Origin: Pseudomonas tohonis
GTDB taxonomy: Bacteria > Pseudomonadota > Gammaproteobacteria > Pseudomonadales > Pseudomonadaceae
DNA: 64,000 nucleotides
Assembly: GCF_012767755.2 (NCBI RefSeq)
Contig: NZ_AP023189.1
Location: 62,001 to 126,000 of the forward strand
Direction of reading: 5' to 3'
Below, piece after piece: positions 58,820-64,000 of this stretch. The notes under the pieces are model-generated. The model saw only the letters and a program-made list of their open reading frames with translations. It was not told the origin of the DNA and did no database searches. How positions within the stretch are numbered: position 1 is the first letter of the stretch; the number at the start of each line of letters is the position of its first letter. The translations under genes were made by a program, and so were the position numbers.

Positions 58820-61800
58820 ATGCTCAACCTCTACCACGCCAATGACCTGGAAAGCCTCGGCGAGCTGGCCTGCACCCTGCTCGTGCAGCCCCAGCGCGAC
58901 CCGTTGGCGCCCTCGCGCGTGGTGGTTCCCAGCCAGGGCATGGGGCGCTGGCTGACGCTGCAACTGGCGCGGCGCGAGGGCATCGCCATGCAGCTCGACA
59001 TCCAGCTGCCCGCGCGCTTCATCTGGGACCTGACCCGCCAGGCCCTGGGCGCGCTGCCGCCGCAGTCGGCGTTCAACCCGGTGACCCTGTCCTGGCGCCT
59101 CTACGACTGGCTGTGCGAGCCCGCCAACCTCGAACGCACGCCGCGCCTGGCGCAGTACCTGGACGGCGGCGACGAGCGCCGCCGCCTGACCCTGGCGGCG
59201 CGCATCGCCGACGTGCTCGACCAGTACCTGCTGTACCGCGACGACTGGCTGGCCGCCTGGGAGCGCGGCGAGCTGCTCGGCCTCGGCGCCGACGAACAGT
59301 GGCAGGCGTTGCTCTGGCGCGAGCTGACCGCCGACGGGCACCCGCACCGGGCGCGCCTGCTCGGCGACCTGCTGGCCCGGCTGCACGACGACGCGCCCAT
59401 CGAGGGTCTGCCGGAGCGGCTCATCGTCTTCGGCATCAGCAGCCTGCCGCCGCACCACATGCGCGTGCTGGAGGGGCTGGCGCGGCATTGCGAGGTCATC
59501 CTCTTCGCCCTCAACCCCTGCCGCGAGGCCTGGGGCGACATCCGCGACATCCGCGAGCTGGCCGCCCTGCCGGAGCCCGGCATCGACGACTGGTACCTCG
59601 ATGTCGGCCATCCGCTGCTGGCCAGCCTGGGCAAGCAGGGGCGGGATTTCTTCGATGCCCTCTTCACCCTCGGCGGCCAGGAGGTCGGCATCTACGCCGA
59701 AGACCAGGACCTGGCCGACGACAGCCTGCTGCGCGCCATCCAGAACGACATCCTGCGCCTGCGCACCCGCCGCGCCGACGAGCGCATGGCCCTGCGCGCG
59801 GGCGACCGTTCGCTGGAAGTGCACGTCTGTCATTCGCCCCTGCGCGAGGTGGAGGTGCTGCACGACCAGCTGCTGGCGCGCTTCGCCGCCGACCCCGGGC
59901 TGACCCCCGACCAGGTGGTGGTGCTGACCCCCGACATCGAGCGCTACGCCCCCTACATCGAGGCGGTGTTCGCCCCGCGCGAAGGCGTGCCGCGCATCCC
60001 CTTCAGCCTCGCCGACCGCAGCCTGCGCGCCGAGCTGCCCTTGGTGGAGGCCTTCCTCGCCCTGCTCGACCTGGCCCAGAGCCGCTTCGCCGCCGAGGAA
60101 CTGCTCGGCTGGCTGGAGCAGCCGGCCCTGGCCGTGCGCGCCGGCATCGAGGCCGAGGATTTGCCCCTGGTCCGCGACTGGCTGCGCGAGGCTGGTGTGC
60201 GCTGGGGCCGCGATGGCCGCCATCGCGCGCGCCTGGGCCTGCCGGAAGAGGACGCCTTCAGCTGGCGCCAGGGCCTGGAGCGCCTGGTGCTGGGCTTCGC
60301 CGCCCCGCCCCGGTTGGCTGGCGATGCCCCGCCCCTGCTGGGCGACAGCTGGCCGCTGGACGCACTGGAAGGCGCCCGCGCCCAATTGCTCGGGCGCCTG
60401 GCCGGCTTTATCCAGCGCCTGGGTCATCTCGCCGACGACCTGGCCCGCCCGCGCCCGCTGGCGGACTGGGCCGAGACCCTGCAGGGCCTGATCGACCAGC
60501 TGTTCGACGAGCGCGAGGCCGGCGAAACCCTGCTGCTGCTGTCCCAGGCCTGCGGCGATTTGCGCAAGCAGGCCGAGGCGGCGGGCATCGAGCGGCCCAT
60601 CGACATGAGCCTGGTGCGCCAGCAACTGGTGGCCGCGCTGGATGCCGGCAGCGGCGCCTCGGGCTTCCTCACCGGCGCGGTGACCTTCTGCACCATGGTG
60701 CCGATGCGCAGCCTGCCGTTCCGCCTGGTGTGCCTGCTCGGCCTGGACGACGGCGCCTTCCCCCGGCGCACCCCTGCCGCCGGCTTCGACCTGATCACCC
60801 GCAAGCCGCGCCGGGGCGACCGCGCGCGGCGCCTCGACGACCGCTACCTGTTGCTGGAAACCCTGCAGTCGGCGCGCGACGGCCTCTACCTCAGCTACGT
60901 GGGCCGCGACCCGCGCGACAACGCGCACCTGCCGCCCTCGGTGCTGATCAGCGAGCTGCTGGAAACCATCGACCTCACGGCCACCGCAGGCGACGCCAAG
61001 GCCAGCGAGCAGGTGCTGATCAGCCACCCGCTGCAGCCCTTCGCTTCCGGCAACTTCGCCGGTGGCAGCCATGCCGGCTTCTCCGCCCCCTGGTTCCGGG
61101 CGGCGCAGCGCCTGGCCGAGGTGCCCCGCGAGCCGGACGCGCCCTTCGCCCTGCCGCTGCCCGAGCCCGACGCCGACTGGCTGACCCTGGAACCTGCGCA
61201 ACTCATCCAGTGCTTCCGCCACCCGGCGCGCTTCCTTCTCGAACAGCGCCTGGGCCTGCGCCTGGCCGAGGCCGAGGAGGCGCTGGCCAGCGACGAGCCC
61301 TTCGCCCTGGAAGGCCCCGCCTGGCGCGGCCTGCGCCAGCTGGCCCTGGACGCCGTGGAGCGCGGCTGGTCGGAGGCGGACGAACGCCGCATCGCCCGTG
61401 CCGCCGGCTGGCTGCCCACCGGTGAGCTGGGCCATGCGCTCTGGGGCCAGCTGCGCGGCCCGGTGCGCGCCTTCGCCCCGCGCCTGTTCGAGGCGCGCCC
61501 GGACAGCGCCCCGCAGCCGCTGCTGGTGGACATCAGCCTGGCCGGGGTGCGCATCCACGGCTGGCTGGACGGCGTCACCGAAGACGGCCTGTTCGGCTGG
61601 CGCCTCAACCGCCTCGGCGAATGGGAGCTGGCGCCCTTCTGGCTGCGCCACCTGCTGCTCAACCTCTCGGCCACCCCCGGCATCGCCCGTGAAAGCCGCC
61701 TGCTCTCGCCCGCCGGCGACTGGCAGGCTGGTCCCCTGGCCAACGCCGGGGCGCTGCTCGAGCCCTGGCTGCGCGCCTACCGCGACGCCCTGTGCGAACC

Positions 61801-62068
61801 CCTGCCGCTGCTGACCAAGGCCAGCCATGGCTTCGCCTCCGGCTGGCGCAAGCCCGGCCGCAAGGAACCCCTCGACGCCGCCCGTAGTAAGGCGCGCATC
61901 GCCTGGGACGGCATCGACTTCGGCCCCGTGGGCGAATCCCGCGACCCCTGGTACGCCCTCGCCTTCCGCGACCGAGACCCGCTGGACGCACGCTTCGAAC
62001 TTCTCGCCGAAACCCTCCTCGGCCCGGCCCTGGACGCCCTGGCGGACGACGGGGAGGAGGACGCATGA
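58820..62068 (+). CDS. recC: Exonuclease V gamma subunit RecC
   Basis: 1082 residues, first gene of the recC-recB(-recD) operon for double-strand-break repair. An inactivated helicase fold that holds RecB and RecD and reads Chi. Opens MLNLYHANDLESLGELACTLL with VVPSQGMGRWLTLQLAR, typical of RecC. The gene ends ADDGEEDA with GGAGGAGG at 62053-62060 placed to serve an ATG at 62065 that overlaps its stop. In most pseudomonads that ATG would be recB; here a small open frame and fic intervene. Confidence 0.95.
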   Translation: MLNLYHANDLESLGELACTLLVQPQRDPLAPSRVVVPSQGMGRWLTLQLARREGIAMQLDIQLPARFIWDLTRQALGALPPQSAFNPVTLSWRLYDWLCEPANLERTPRLAQYLDGGDERRRLTLAARIADVLDQYLLYRDDWLAAWERGELLGLGADEQWQALLWRELTADGHPHRARLLGDLLARLHDDAPIEGLPERLIVFGISSLPPHHMRVLEGLARHCEVILFALNPCREAWGDIRDIRELAALPEPGIDDWYLDVGHPLLASLGKQGRDFFDALFTLGGQEVGIYAEDQDLADDSLLRAIQNDILRLRTRRADERMALRAGDRSLEVHVCHSPLREVEVLHDQLLARFAADPGLTPDQVVVLTPDIERYAPYIEAVFAPREGVPRIPFSLADRSLRAELPLVEAFLALLDLAQSRFAAEELLGWLEQPALAVRAGIEAEDLPLVRDWLREAGVRWGRDGRHRARLGLPEEDAFSWRQGLERLVLGFAAPPRLAGDAPPLLGDSWPLDALEGARAQLLGRLAGFIQRLGHLADDLARPRPLADWAETLQGLIDQLFDEREAGETLLLLSQACGDLRKQAEAAGIERPIDMSLVRQQLVAALDAGSGASGFLTGAVTFCTMVPMRSLPFRLVCLLGLDDGAFPRRTPAAGFDLITRKPRRGDRARRLDDRYLLLETLQSARDGLYLSYVGRDPRDNAHLPPSVLISELLETIDLTATAGDAKASEQVLISHPLQPFASGNFAGGSHAGFSAPWFRAAQRLAEVPREPDAPFALPLPEPDADWLTLEPAQLIQCFRHPARFLLEQRLGLRLAEAEEALASDEPFALEGPAWRGLRQLALDAVERGWSEADERRIARAAGWLPTGELGHALWGQLRGPVRAFAPRLFEARPDSAPQPLLVDISLAGVRIHGWLDGVTEDGLFGWRLNRLGEWELAPFWLRHLLLNLSATPGIARESRLLSPAGDWQAGPLANAGALLEPWLRAYRDALCEPLPLLTKASHGFASGWRKPGRKEPLDAARSKARIAWDGIDFGPVGESRDPWYALAFRDRDPLDARFELLAETLLGPALDALADDGEEDA
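62057..62068. repeat. Left copy of the recC-end direct repeat
   Basis: GACGCATGA at 62060-62068 is repeated at 63287-63295. Aligned over the last 26 nt, the ends of recC and fic agree at 18 positions (protein ends DDGEEDA and DDLRDDA). This marks the borders of the inserted segment. Confidence 0.7.
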
Positions 62069-62217
62069 ATGGCGTCAATAGTCATGCGTTTGCGCATATT
62101 CCTATGCATTTCAGGTCCGACATGCATAGGAATCAGCCTTTTTCTATACGTATTCGTATCGGGGGGCCGGAAAATCGTGATTTCCGTCGCATGAAGGGAG
62201 TCTGTCGCAATGGCTGA
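62065..62217 (+). CDS. Possible 50-residue leader peptide between recC and fic
   Basis: Starts at ATG 62065, overlapping the recC stop (ATGA) with GGAGGAGG 4 nt upstream, and stops at 62215-62217, inside the first codons of fic (8-nt overlap). The product begins MNGVNSHAFAHIPMHFRSD and ends RRMKGVCRNG; it is rich in Arg and His and matches no family I know. It lacks the S/TxxxE(G/N) motif of FicA antitoxins. It may be a coupling peptide carrying ribosomes from recC to fic, or just what follows the old recB start codon. Confidence 0.45.
   Translation: MNGVNSHAFAHIPMHFRSDMHRNQPFSIRIRIGGPENRDFRRMKGVCRNG
62098..62133. promoter_or_regulatory. 12-bp perfect inverted repeat upstream of fic
   Basis: ATTCCTATGCAT (62098-62109) and ATGCATAGGAAT (62122-62133) with a 12-nt spacer, followed by CAGCCTTTTTC (five T, 62139-62143). 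It could be an operator for a dimeric regulator or an RNA hairpin acting as an attenuator. A second, smaller dyad ATACG/CGTAT follows at 62146-62159. The region is much richer in AT than recC. Confidence 0.6.
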
Positions 62218-63295
62218 TCTGCGCGGGTTGCACGAACTCGACCCGGCCCGTTTCGAGAGCAGGTCGATACTCCGCAAACTGACCACGGCCAGCCGCGCGC
62301 TGGCTGAGCTCAAGGGCGTGGCGTCGTCCATTCCCCATCAGGGCATTCTGATCAACACGTTGGGCATGCAGGAGGCCAAGGACAGCTCGGCCATCGAGAA
62401 CATCGTTACCACCCATGACGATTTGTTCCGTGACGATGCATTCCCCGATTCCTCCAACAGCCCCGCTGCCAAGGAGGTCCTGCGCTACCGCCAGGCGCTC
62501 CACGTCGGATTCGCCTCCGTGCGCGAAACCGGCTTGTTGACGACCAATCAGATCATCGATATCCAGGCCGAGCTTGAGCGCAACAATGCAGGTTTGCGTC
62601 GGCTTCCGGGAACCACGCTCAAGGATGGCCTGGGGCGGGTGGTCTATACGCCTCCTCAGGATGCCGAACGTGTTGTCGAGCTGATGCGTGACCTGGAGCG
62701 ATTCATCAACGACGACGAGCTTTTCGATGCCGACCCGCTGGTGAAGATGGCGCTGATCCACCACCAGTTCGAGAGCATCCACCCGTTCTACGACGGCAAT
62801 GGCCGGGCGGGCCGTATCGTCAACGTCCTGTATCTGCTCAAGTGCGGAATGCTGGATATCCCGGTGCTCTACCTGAGCCGCCATATCGTGCGTCACAAGG
62901 CCGAGTACTACCGCTTGCTGCAAGCCGTGCGCGACGATGGGCAATGGGAAGACTGGGTGCTGTTCATGCTGGCGGCGGTCGAGGAAACCGCGCGCCAGGC
63001 CATCGGCACGATCGAGGCAATCAAGGCTGCGCTGCTCGACTACAAGCACCGTATACGGGCGCAGCACAGGTTCTACAGCCAGGACCTGATCAACAACCTG
63101 TTTACCCATCCCTACACCAAGATCGAGTTTGTCATGCGCGATCTGGGCGTATCCCGCCTGACCGCCACGCGCTACCTGCAGGAACTCACCGACAGTGGGT
63201 TCCTTGAGAAACGCCGGATCGGTCGCTCCAACTACTACAGCAACCTGGCGCTGAACGCGGTGCTCACCGGCGACGACCTGAGGGACGACGCATGA
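62210..63295 (+). CDS. fic: Fic-family AMP-transferase with internal inhibitory helix
   Basis: 361 residues. Catalytic motif HPFYDGNGRAGR with His191, flap upstream, and N-terminal inhibitory motif S-SAI-E63-N64 (KDSSAIENI), making it a class II, self-restrained Fic protein like Shewanella SoFic. The C-terminus is a winged helix (MRDLGVSRLTATRYLQELTDSGFLEKR) and might bind DNA. It would add AMP to hydroxyl groups of a protein target, unknown here. Codon use is less GC-rich than recC and recB, which suggests transfer. AAGGGAG lies before ATG 62210. Its stop overlaps the recB start (ATGA). A Fic gene inside recCB is not an arrangement I know. Confidence 0.93.
   Translation: MADLRGLHELDPARFESRSILRKLTTASRALAELKGVASSIPHQGILINTLGMQEAKDSSAIENIVTTHDDLFRDDAFPDSSNSPAAKEVLRYRQALHVGFASVRETGLLTTNQIIDIQAELERNNAGLRRLPGTTLKDGLGRVVYTPPQDAERVVELMRDLERFINDDELFDADPLVKMALIHHQFESIHPFYDGNGRAGRIVNVLYLLKCGMLDIPVLYLSRHIVRHKAEYYRLLQAVRDDGQWEDWVLFMLAAVEETARQAIGTIEAIKAALLDYKHRIRAQHRFYSQDLINNLFTHPYTKIEFVMRDLGVSRLTATRYLQELTDSGFLEKRRIGRSNYYSNLALNAVLTGDDLRDDA
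63287..63295. repeat. Right copy of the recC-end direct repeat
   Basis: GACGCATGA, identical to 62060-62068, spans the fic stop and recB start. Confidence 0.7.
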
Positions 63296-64000
63296 GCCTC
63301 GACCTGCTCAACGATCCCTTCACCGGGCGCAGCCTGATCGAGGCCAGCGCCGGCACCGGCAAGACCTGGACCCTGACCGCGCTCTACGCGCGCCTGCTGC
63401 TGGAGCGCCGGCTGGGCGTGGGGCAGATCCTGGTGGTCACCTACACCACCGCCGCCACGGCCGAGCTGCGCGAGCGCATCCGCGCGCGGCTGGCGGCGCT
63501 GCTCGCCGTCTATGAAGGCGCGGAGGCACCCGACCCGGTGCTCGCCGGGCTGCATGCGCAGTACCCGGGCGAGGACGCCCATCGGCGCCTGCTGCTGGCG
63601 GTGCACGGCTTCGACGAGGCGGCCATCTTCACCATCCACGGCTTCTGCCAGCGGGCGCTGCAGGACGCGGCGTTCGAGGCCGGTGGCGATTTCGACAGCG
63701 AGTTGACGGCGGACGACCGCGAGGTGCTCGACGGCCTGCTCGCCGACCTGTGGCGCGCCGAGCTGGCGGCGGCGGAGCCCGCCTGGGCGCGGTTCCTCGC
63801 GCAGAAGCGCATCACCCCGCAGTCGCTGCGCCAGCGCCTGCGCTCGCACCTGGGCAAGCCCTACCTGCGCATCGAACCGCGCGACGGCGAGCTGGGCGAC
63901 CTGGGTGCGGCCAGCGAGGCCTGGACCCATGCCCGCGATATCTGGCTGCGTGATGCACAGGCCTGCCTGTCGGACCTGGCCGCCTTCGACGGGCTCAACA
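63292..64000 (+). CDS. recB: Exonuclease V beta subunit RecB, N-terminal part
   Basis: 236 residues visible; the frame runs off the window. UvrD-type helicase start with Walker A IEASAGTGKTWTLTALYARLLLE and motif Ia VVTYTTAATAELRERIRARL, then IFTIHGFCQRALQDAAFEAG typical of RecB. ATG 63292 overlaps the fic stop. recD would be expected further right. Confidence 0.95.
   Translation, partial: MSLDLLNDPFTGRSLIEASAGTGKTWTLTALYARLLLERRLGVGQILVVTYTTAATAELRERIRARLAALLAVYEGAEAPDPVLAGLHAQYPGEDAHRRLLLAVHGFDEAAIFTIHGFCQRALQDAAFEAGGDFDSELTADDREVLDGLLADLWRAELAAAEPAWARFLAQKRITPQSLRQRLRSHLGKPYLRIEPRDGELGDLGAASEAWTHARDIWLRDAQACLSDLAAFDGLN

Follow-up and report, generated by a model that had tools for sequence, protein, structure and literature searches.

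A SoFic-like fic gene with a putative operator of its own in the recC-recB junction of Pseudomonas tohonis

Why a gene for a Fic-type AMP-transferase should lie precisely between recC and recB is the question raised by a 64,000-nt stretch of the Pseudomonas tohonis genome (assembly GCF_012767755.2, contig NZ_AP023189.1, positions 62,001 to 126,000 of the forward strand; hereafter the window), in which a sequence-only reading had seen an insertion that duplicated the tail of recC and perhaps tied the Fic protein to the RecBCD nuclease. Our comparisons make an insertion between recC and recB well supported, since the junction is empty in sister species, the RecB tree agrees and the tail of the gene is native to fic. 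As to what the gene is doing there, we think it probable, if some way from settled, that a self-regulated defence toxin has been parked in a slot where accessory genes such as occur in restriction operons have lodged again and again.

The insert and its borders

The features on which the argument depends are these (window positions):

58820..62068, plus strand: recC, 1082 aa (TIGR01450, 943 bits; Pfam Exonuc_V_gamma and RecC_C)
62060..62068, plus strand: left copy of GACGCATGA, at the recC stop (sequence count)
62098..62109, plus strand: putative operator half-site 1, ATTCCTATGCAT (array comparison)
62122..62133, minus strand: putative operator half-site 2, ATGCATAGGAAT, 24 nt after site 1 (array comparison)
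62140..62151, plus strand: putative operator half-site 3, TTTTCTATACGT, 18 nt after site 2 (array comparison)
62194..62200, plus strand: AAGGGAG, likely ribosome-binding site of fic (judged by eye)
62210..63295, plus strand: fic, 361 aa, SoFic-like class II AMP-transferase (Pfam, PADLOC and PDB matches)
62396..62398, plus strand: codon for E63 of the inhibitory motif SSAIEN (motif reading)
62780..62815, plus strand: catalytic motif HPFYDGNGRAGR, with H191 as its first residue (motif reading)
63280..63285, plus strand: GAGGGA, likely ribosome-binding site of recB, including AGG codon 358 of fic (judged by eye)
63287..63295, plus strand: right copy of GACGCATGA, at the fic stop and recB start (sequence count)
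63292..64000, plus strand: recB, first 236 aa, running out of the window (1207-aa open frame in the genome)

Fic proteins carry the catalytic motif HxFx(D/E)GNGRxxR and an N-terminal inhibitory motif (S/T)xxxE(G/N), and both are intact here, E63 lying in SSAIEN (from residue 59) and H191 opening HPFYDGNGRAGR, as the sequence-only reading had it. The domain order is Fic_N, Fic, SoFic-like_C, all above the Pfam cut-offs, the PADLOC SoFic profile matches residues 13-352 with 387 bits and the best PDB matches are SoFic-type chains; judged by sequence, the gene belongs to the SoFic-like class II fics, and the PADLOC match is what points to a possible part in phage protection.

The word GACGCATGA occurs twice on the plus strand of the window and not at all on the minus strand, so the exact 9-nt repeat at the recC stop and the fic stop/recB start is real; equally, RecC ends in DDGEEDA and Fic in DDLRDDA, and the fic stop shares an ATGA with the start codon of recB. 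The similarity of the last 26 nt of recC and fic, which had been read as a duplicated recC tail, likewise exists (19 positions by our count rather than 18), but a copy of the recC tail is tenable for its last 9-12 nt only. The close relatives of fic in G162 and G058 already end in ..GENLRDD*, so LRDD is native to fic, and with a GCA codon added before the stop these native tails match the recC tail at 16 and 17 of 26 positions. Upstream of GACGCATGA the recC tail is matched at 10 of 17 positions by the window fic and at 8 of 17 by the native tails, so that this part of the similarity tells little, and a recC-tail copy of some 26 nt was rejected, fic's own tail accounting for the likeness. Because the window fic, ending LRDDA, differs from the native tail by an added GCA, the join falls within GAC/GACGCATGA, and up to the microhomology GACGACGCATGA the contribution of the junction to fic is, on this alignment, GCA and the shared TGA. 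Comparison of the relatives thereby locates the right-hand join in the sequence; capture by microhomology is what we infer from it. Just before this join, the AGG of fic codon 358 reads CGG in G058 and CGT in G162, and AGG serves none of the 110 arginine codons of recC and 3 of the 33 in fic, so it is not unique to that codon.

In a common junction of the family recC ends in ..GACGCATGA and recB begins at its ATG, the word being present once in the empty sites of G004, G024, G287, G227 and others. The insert in G162 splits the recC tail, leaving a recC that ends in GAGGAGTGA and GACGCATGA only before recB, so the two fic inserts have different borders, and the G162 fic does not overlap recB. 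Exact direct repeats around the window insert and single copies at empty sites would also suit the 9-bp target-site duplication of a transposon-like insertion, a reading to which we give very little credence: the open frames of the insert hold no transposase, no terminal inverted repeats were seen (the best 20-mer has 9 matches, a value reached in 200 of 200 shuffles), and G162 combines a split recC tail with the lack of any such duplication. An insertion sequence or transposon proper was rejected on the same missing transposase and terminal repeats and on G162.

Empty, scarred and filled junctions

Within the genus (18 genomes, one per species) a RecB of the window type occurs in 14 (E <=1e-60), and the fic itself, at the same threshold, in two: the window and, elsewhere in its genome, G011, where the relative is 45% identical. 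The 14 junctions comprise three that are empty, with a 4-nt recC/recB overlap (G004, G008 and G009), nine spacers of 81-237 nt, a 123-nt spacer with a fic scar in G006, and that of the window, alone with an intact fic. A tree of 230 aa of RecB places the window beside G008 and G009 (99/93), with G004 outside them at weaker support (91/72); the refuting condition named in the sequence-only reading, a fic in nearly all related species and no empty sites, thus does not hold, an outcome in favour of that reading.

The reverse history, an ancient fic lost precisely in the sister species, with the repeat as a trace of loss or a chance match, we consider improbable. The G006 scar, a tblastn match to fic residues 335-360 accompanied by array-like half-sites seen by eye, does lie in the same junction, the 9-nt repeat could mediate a clean loss and the position of G004 is weakly supported; against this, G008, G009 and G004 are all tight, the borders of the scar are unlike those of the window fic, and fic has a lower GC3 (G+C at third codon positions) than recC (0.81 versus 0.93). 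The G+C of the spacer and fic together is also lower than that of their neighbours.

Three side observations concern the same genus. The RecC of G008 and G009 (loci L136 and L137) matches in two overlapping pieces, from a frameshift or an assembly error. G002, G010, G013 and G016 have no match to the end of the window RecC, and their best RecB is just 46-48% identical, which suggests two RecBCD lineages in the genus. Lastly, AATTCATTCGC, absent from the window, is part of a repeated element, which we take to be REP-like, in 8 of the 9 fic-free loose junctions (L133-L135, L159-L162 and L164, that is G012, G011, G014, G015, G003, G005, G007 and G017).

Beyond the genus, 98 genomes of the family have this RecC, and in 94 of them, from a by-eye reading of linkage and gaps, recC and recB share a contig; junctions were fetched for 57 of the 93 linked relatives, picked for wide gaps and to cover most genera, and the rest were judged from coordinates. 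Tight junctions (<=5 nt apart) make up 36 of the 59 loci read, the recB start being extrapolated where the gap is 2 or 5 nt, and long coding inserts fill 7 of the 94:

G000 (the window) and G162: fic
G036 and G020: AlbA_2 gene with HATPase_c_4
G244: remnant of an AlbA_2/HATPase_c_4 gene
G030: PADLOC candidate defence pair PDC-M05A/B
G285: 477-aa frame, no Pfam or PADLOC match

The earlier suggestion of a tolerated slot, drawn from ptrA at this spot in E. coli, fits these fillings, and the ptr gene does lie in the E. coli junction (PMC2586629). The AlbA_2 gene matches no named PADLOC system, with weak matches only to Argonaute-associated profiles, and Pfam gives no match for any open frame in the spacers of G147, G209 and G240, which measure 297-661 nt. 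In G020 the AlbA_2 gene is flanked on the recC side by an hsdM N-terminal fragment (58 aa, 48%, E 8e-9) and on the recB side by an hsdR-like N-terminal fragment (45 aa, 42%, E 0.001); G244 retains a 22-aa hsdR-like fragment (59%, E 0.009) and G036 a similar hsdR-like start, seen by eye. The hsdR fragments are short and the E-values come from a search of 13 loci, and with that proviso the three slots resemble restriction operons in decay. On a Pseudoalteromonas plasmid an AlbA_2 relative (45.8%) has hsdS on one side and hsdR on the other; none of three other plasmid relatives examined, of 15 found, is in a restriction operon. Across the class (151 genomes, some 37 of them, counted by eye, with recC and recB on a single contig) two others hold large inserts, a class I/II aminotransferase gene in G755 and a choloylglycine-hydrolase-like gene with a FUSC-like gene in G684, and these metabolic inserts contradict the idea of a slot reserved for defence genes.

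That the two fic inserts descend from a single shared arrival we rejected: the fic tree puts those of the window and G162 in separate supported clades, and an approximately unbiased (AU) test rejects a clade of the window fic, P0001 and that of G162 alone (p 6.9e-99). A wider forced clade of 8 rows is not rejected (p 0.053), both groups having been named after inspection of the tree, and for this reason the case for separate arrivals draws on the differing borders and the RecB tree as well.

Relatives of fic and the array upstream of it

Matches to the fic at E <=1e-60 occur in 23 of 298 genomes of the family, and the close ones among them, the window apart, are just G058 (83%) and G162 (82%); in the genus of G162, 2 of 398 genomes match at E <=1e-100, namely G162 and one at 60%. 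The plasmid relatives include two at 83-84% identity, both in the operon order hsdM-fic-hsdS-fic-hsdR and both with the close fic between hsdM and hsdS: one on plasmid NZ_CP045301.1 of Azotobacter salinestris, the other, 83.9% identical and accompanied by one additional nuclease gene, on plasmid NZ_CP066312.1 of A. chroococcum. For Histophilus somni a published list (PMC3339403) already has a Fic gene in the company of type I restriction genes. A phage origin was considered and rejected, phage records giving one match and viral contigs six loci, all at <=59% as against the 83-84% of the plasmids.

Other relatives are recorded here for their own sake. Each of the Azotobacter operons (L205, L206) has two different Fic genes, and one has a PD-(D/E)XK nuclease gene as well; the near relatives P0001-P0003, each of 361 aa, end in DDV, DGA and DGP as if overlapping a recB start, their surroundings being out of view. 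In the plasmid collection 242 records have a SoFic match, 152 of them on Salmonella plasmids, and 240 are <60% identical. By their N-termini alone, neighbours of the SoFic-like genes in L043, L065, L079, L086, L087 and L090 resemble type III restriction genes.

To place these settings in proportion we took 101 related loci (the best 80 of at least 551 named ones, 18 of the family, and the window, G162 and G058), many of which end at contig ends. Genes of the hsd type, found by tblastn with the G058 proteins, stand beside 24 of them, 4 of these cases resting on HsdM matches of 27-28%; two loci, the window and G162, lie at recC/recB, and 75 at neither.

Upstream of fic in the related loci runs an array of 12-bp half-sites, TTTYCTATRCAT, in alternating orientation. 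With at most one mismatch they precede fic in 71 of the 101 loci and follow it in none, ten shuffles giving a mean of 0.7 loci. When up to two mismatches are allowed, the counts are 83 upstream, 5 downstream and 7.2 in shuffles; of the 83 closer relatives 68 have such sites at the stricter limit and 79 at the looser one. Neighbouring sites are spaced at 24 nt (plus-minus) or 17/18 nt (minus-plus) in 112 of 142 pairs, and an unselected partner with at most two mismatches follows a plus site by 24 nt in 27 of 69 cases as against 0 of 363 at other offsets. As the consensus was drawn from the same loci, it is the downstream, shuffle and offset controls that are the evidence; in selected matching pairs the sites carry 1.4-1.7 bits per position, a figure inflated by the selection, and the spacers 0.2-0.5. 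The window sites stand at -112, -88 and -70 from the fic start, and the palindrome of sites 1 and 2 (62098-62133) is the sole match to its pattern anywhere in the genome. RNA hairpins could form from the repeats (z -2.8), which may have a role in RNA; a DNA operator is preferred because the sites are conserved at fixed spacing and because a Fic autorepressor with a helix-turn-helix (HTH) domain is known, namely CccR. The array is thus probably the operator of fic itself.

Possible roles and known systems

The explanation that we favour, a parked and self-regulated defence toxin, would run as follows. The insert would be a self-contained module, the putative operator array with its SoFic-like class II Fic, whose close relatives of known setting outside the slot are accessories of type I restriction operons on the two Azotobacter plasmids; the recC-recB junction would have captured it once the lineage had parted from its sister species, and the join on the right, at GAC/GACGCATGA, would have swapped the stop of fic for GCATGA and left recB its ATGA overlap. 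Fic would be kept silent by its inhibitory helix and, conceivably, by a winged-helix domain that binds the array as an autorepressor in the manner of CccR; phage infection might then release it to AMPylate host targets, as has been reported for EcSofic (PMC12249575). RecBCD would be the landlord and not the partner, with the side effect that fic and the putative operator now precede recB.

Several observations weigh against this account. In the visible sequence 75 of the 101 related fics have neither hsd nor recBC neighbours, so that restriction genes are not their usual company, and no hsd relic was seen beside the window fic, unlike the AlbA_2 inserts; the window fic adjoins none of hsdM, hsdS and hsdR, the one HsdM_N match of its genome being at 6.535 Mb. 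Half-sites precede just 3 (at most one mismatch) and 4 (at most two) of the 18 more distant family members, a search of 61900-63500 for sigma-70-like promoters gave 0 with 0.5 expected, and the window Fic, at 359 bits, misses the 550-bit cut-off of the NCBIfam SoFic equivalog NF046030. An AS1 antitoxin is reported downstream of EcSofic, and in the window the start of recB leaves no space for an AS1-like gene after fic; according to PMC10628234, SoFic had as of 2023 not been shown to bind DNA.

The insert could also bear on expression, placing recB and the genes downstream under a Fic-controlled promoter such that the level of Fic sets that of RecBCD, a possibility that we find doubtful. The array and fic do lie between recC and recB, the fic stop overlaps the recB start and no terminator-like site was seen in the interval; read-through from recC may nevertheless suffice, and the promoter search just mentioned came back empty.

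That Fic guards or partners RecBCD, sensing the nuclease or its inhibition by phage and then AMPylating, and perhaps guarding HsdR likewise, seems quite unlikely, its support being positional. Two fic residents and one scar in the slot favour it, as do the three further residents (two AlbA_2 genes and one remnant) with relatives at least once in a type I restriction operon beside a DNA-translocating nuclease, and the fic-recB overlap. Phage T5, moreover, inactivates RecBCD. EcSofic, a toxic protein, protects against T5 (PMC12249575). Yet fic occupies just 2 of the 94 linked family junctions and does not overlap recB in G162; tblastn with the window RecB and RecC placed none of the 80 named SoFic-like loci at recC-recB (the best 80 of at least 551; flanks of <=6 kb, many cut); and the slot also holds repeat-bearing spacers and, in other families, unrelated metabolic genes. 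Both the settings of the 101 loci, with 2 at recC-recB, and the regulatory array that fic has in most of its locations speak against any special link. Little likelihood attaches, too, to a change of partner, whereby guard-like SoFic and AlbA_2 proteins of restriction operons watch a DNA-translocating nuclease and, once the operon had decayed between recC and recB, went on watching RecBCD in place of HsdR.

On the favoured explanation of a parked defence gene, defence-type genes would be using a core repair operon as a place to land, a single bacterial family displaying that slot empty, filled, scarred and with restriction relics, and the SoFic family gains a concrete, testable candidate operator; were the residents found to monitor RecBCD, this would suggest a role for the Fic and AlbA_2 genes of type I restriction operons. 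No earlier report of fic in this slot was found in titles and abstracts, a search whose scope left out most subscription papers and all preprints.

Among known systems, the E. coli order recC-ptr-recB-recD (PMC2586629) places an unrelated gene in the same junction, ptr encoding protease III, which is not of the defence type. SoFic/Sofic, a single-gene anti-phage system, has the domain order and motifs of the window Fic, which differs in its place between recC and recB and in falling under the equivalog cut-off. CccR of Yersinia pseudotuberculosis is a Fic enzyme that represses itself, its C-terminal HTH binding inverted repeats in the promoter of the cccR gene (PMC9755527), and palindromic sites, as a putative operator, precede the window fic likewise; the CccR site, however, consists of two 10-bp repeats 26 bp apart, whereas the 12-bp half-sites of the window alternate at 24 and 17/18 nt, and CccR is itself secreted. 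Type I restriction operons with Fic or AlbA_2 accessories, finally, have two close fic relatives between hsdM and hsdS and an AlbA_2 relative between hsdS and hsdR, while the window fic stands alone, with no hsd genes, between recC and recB.

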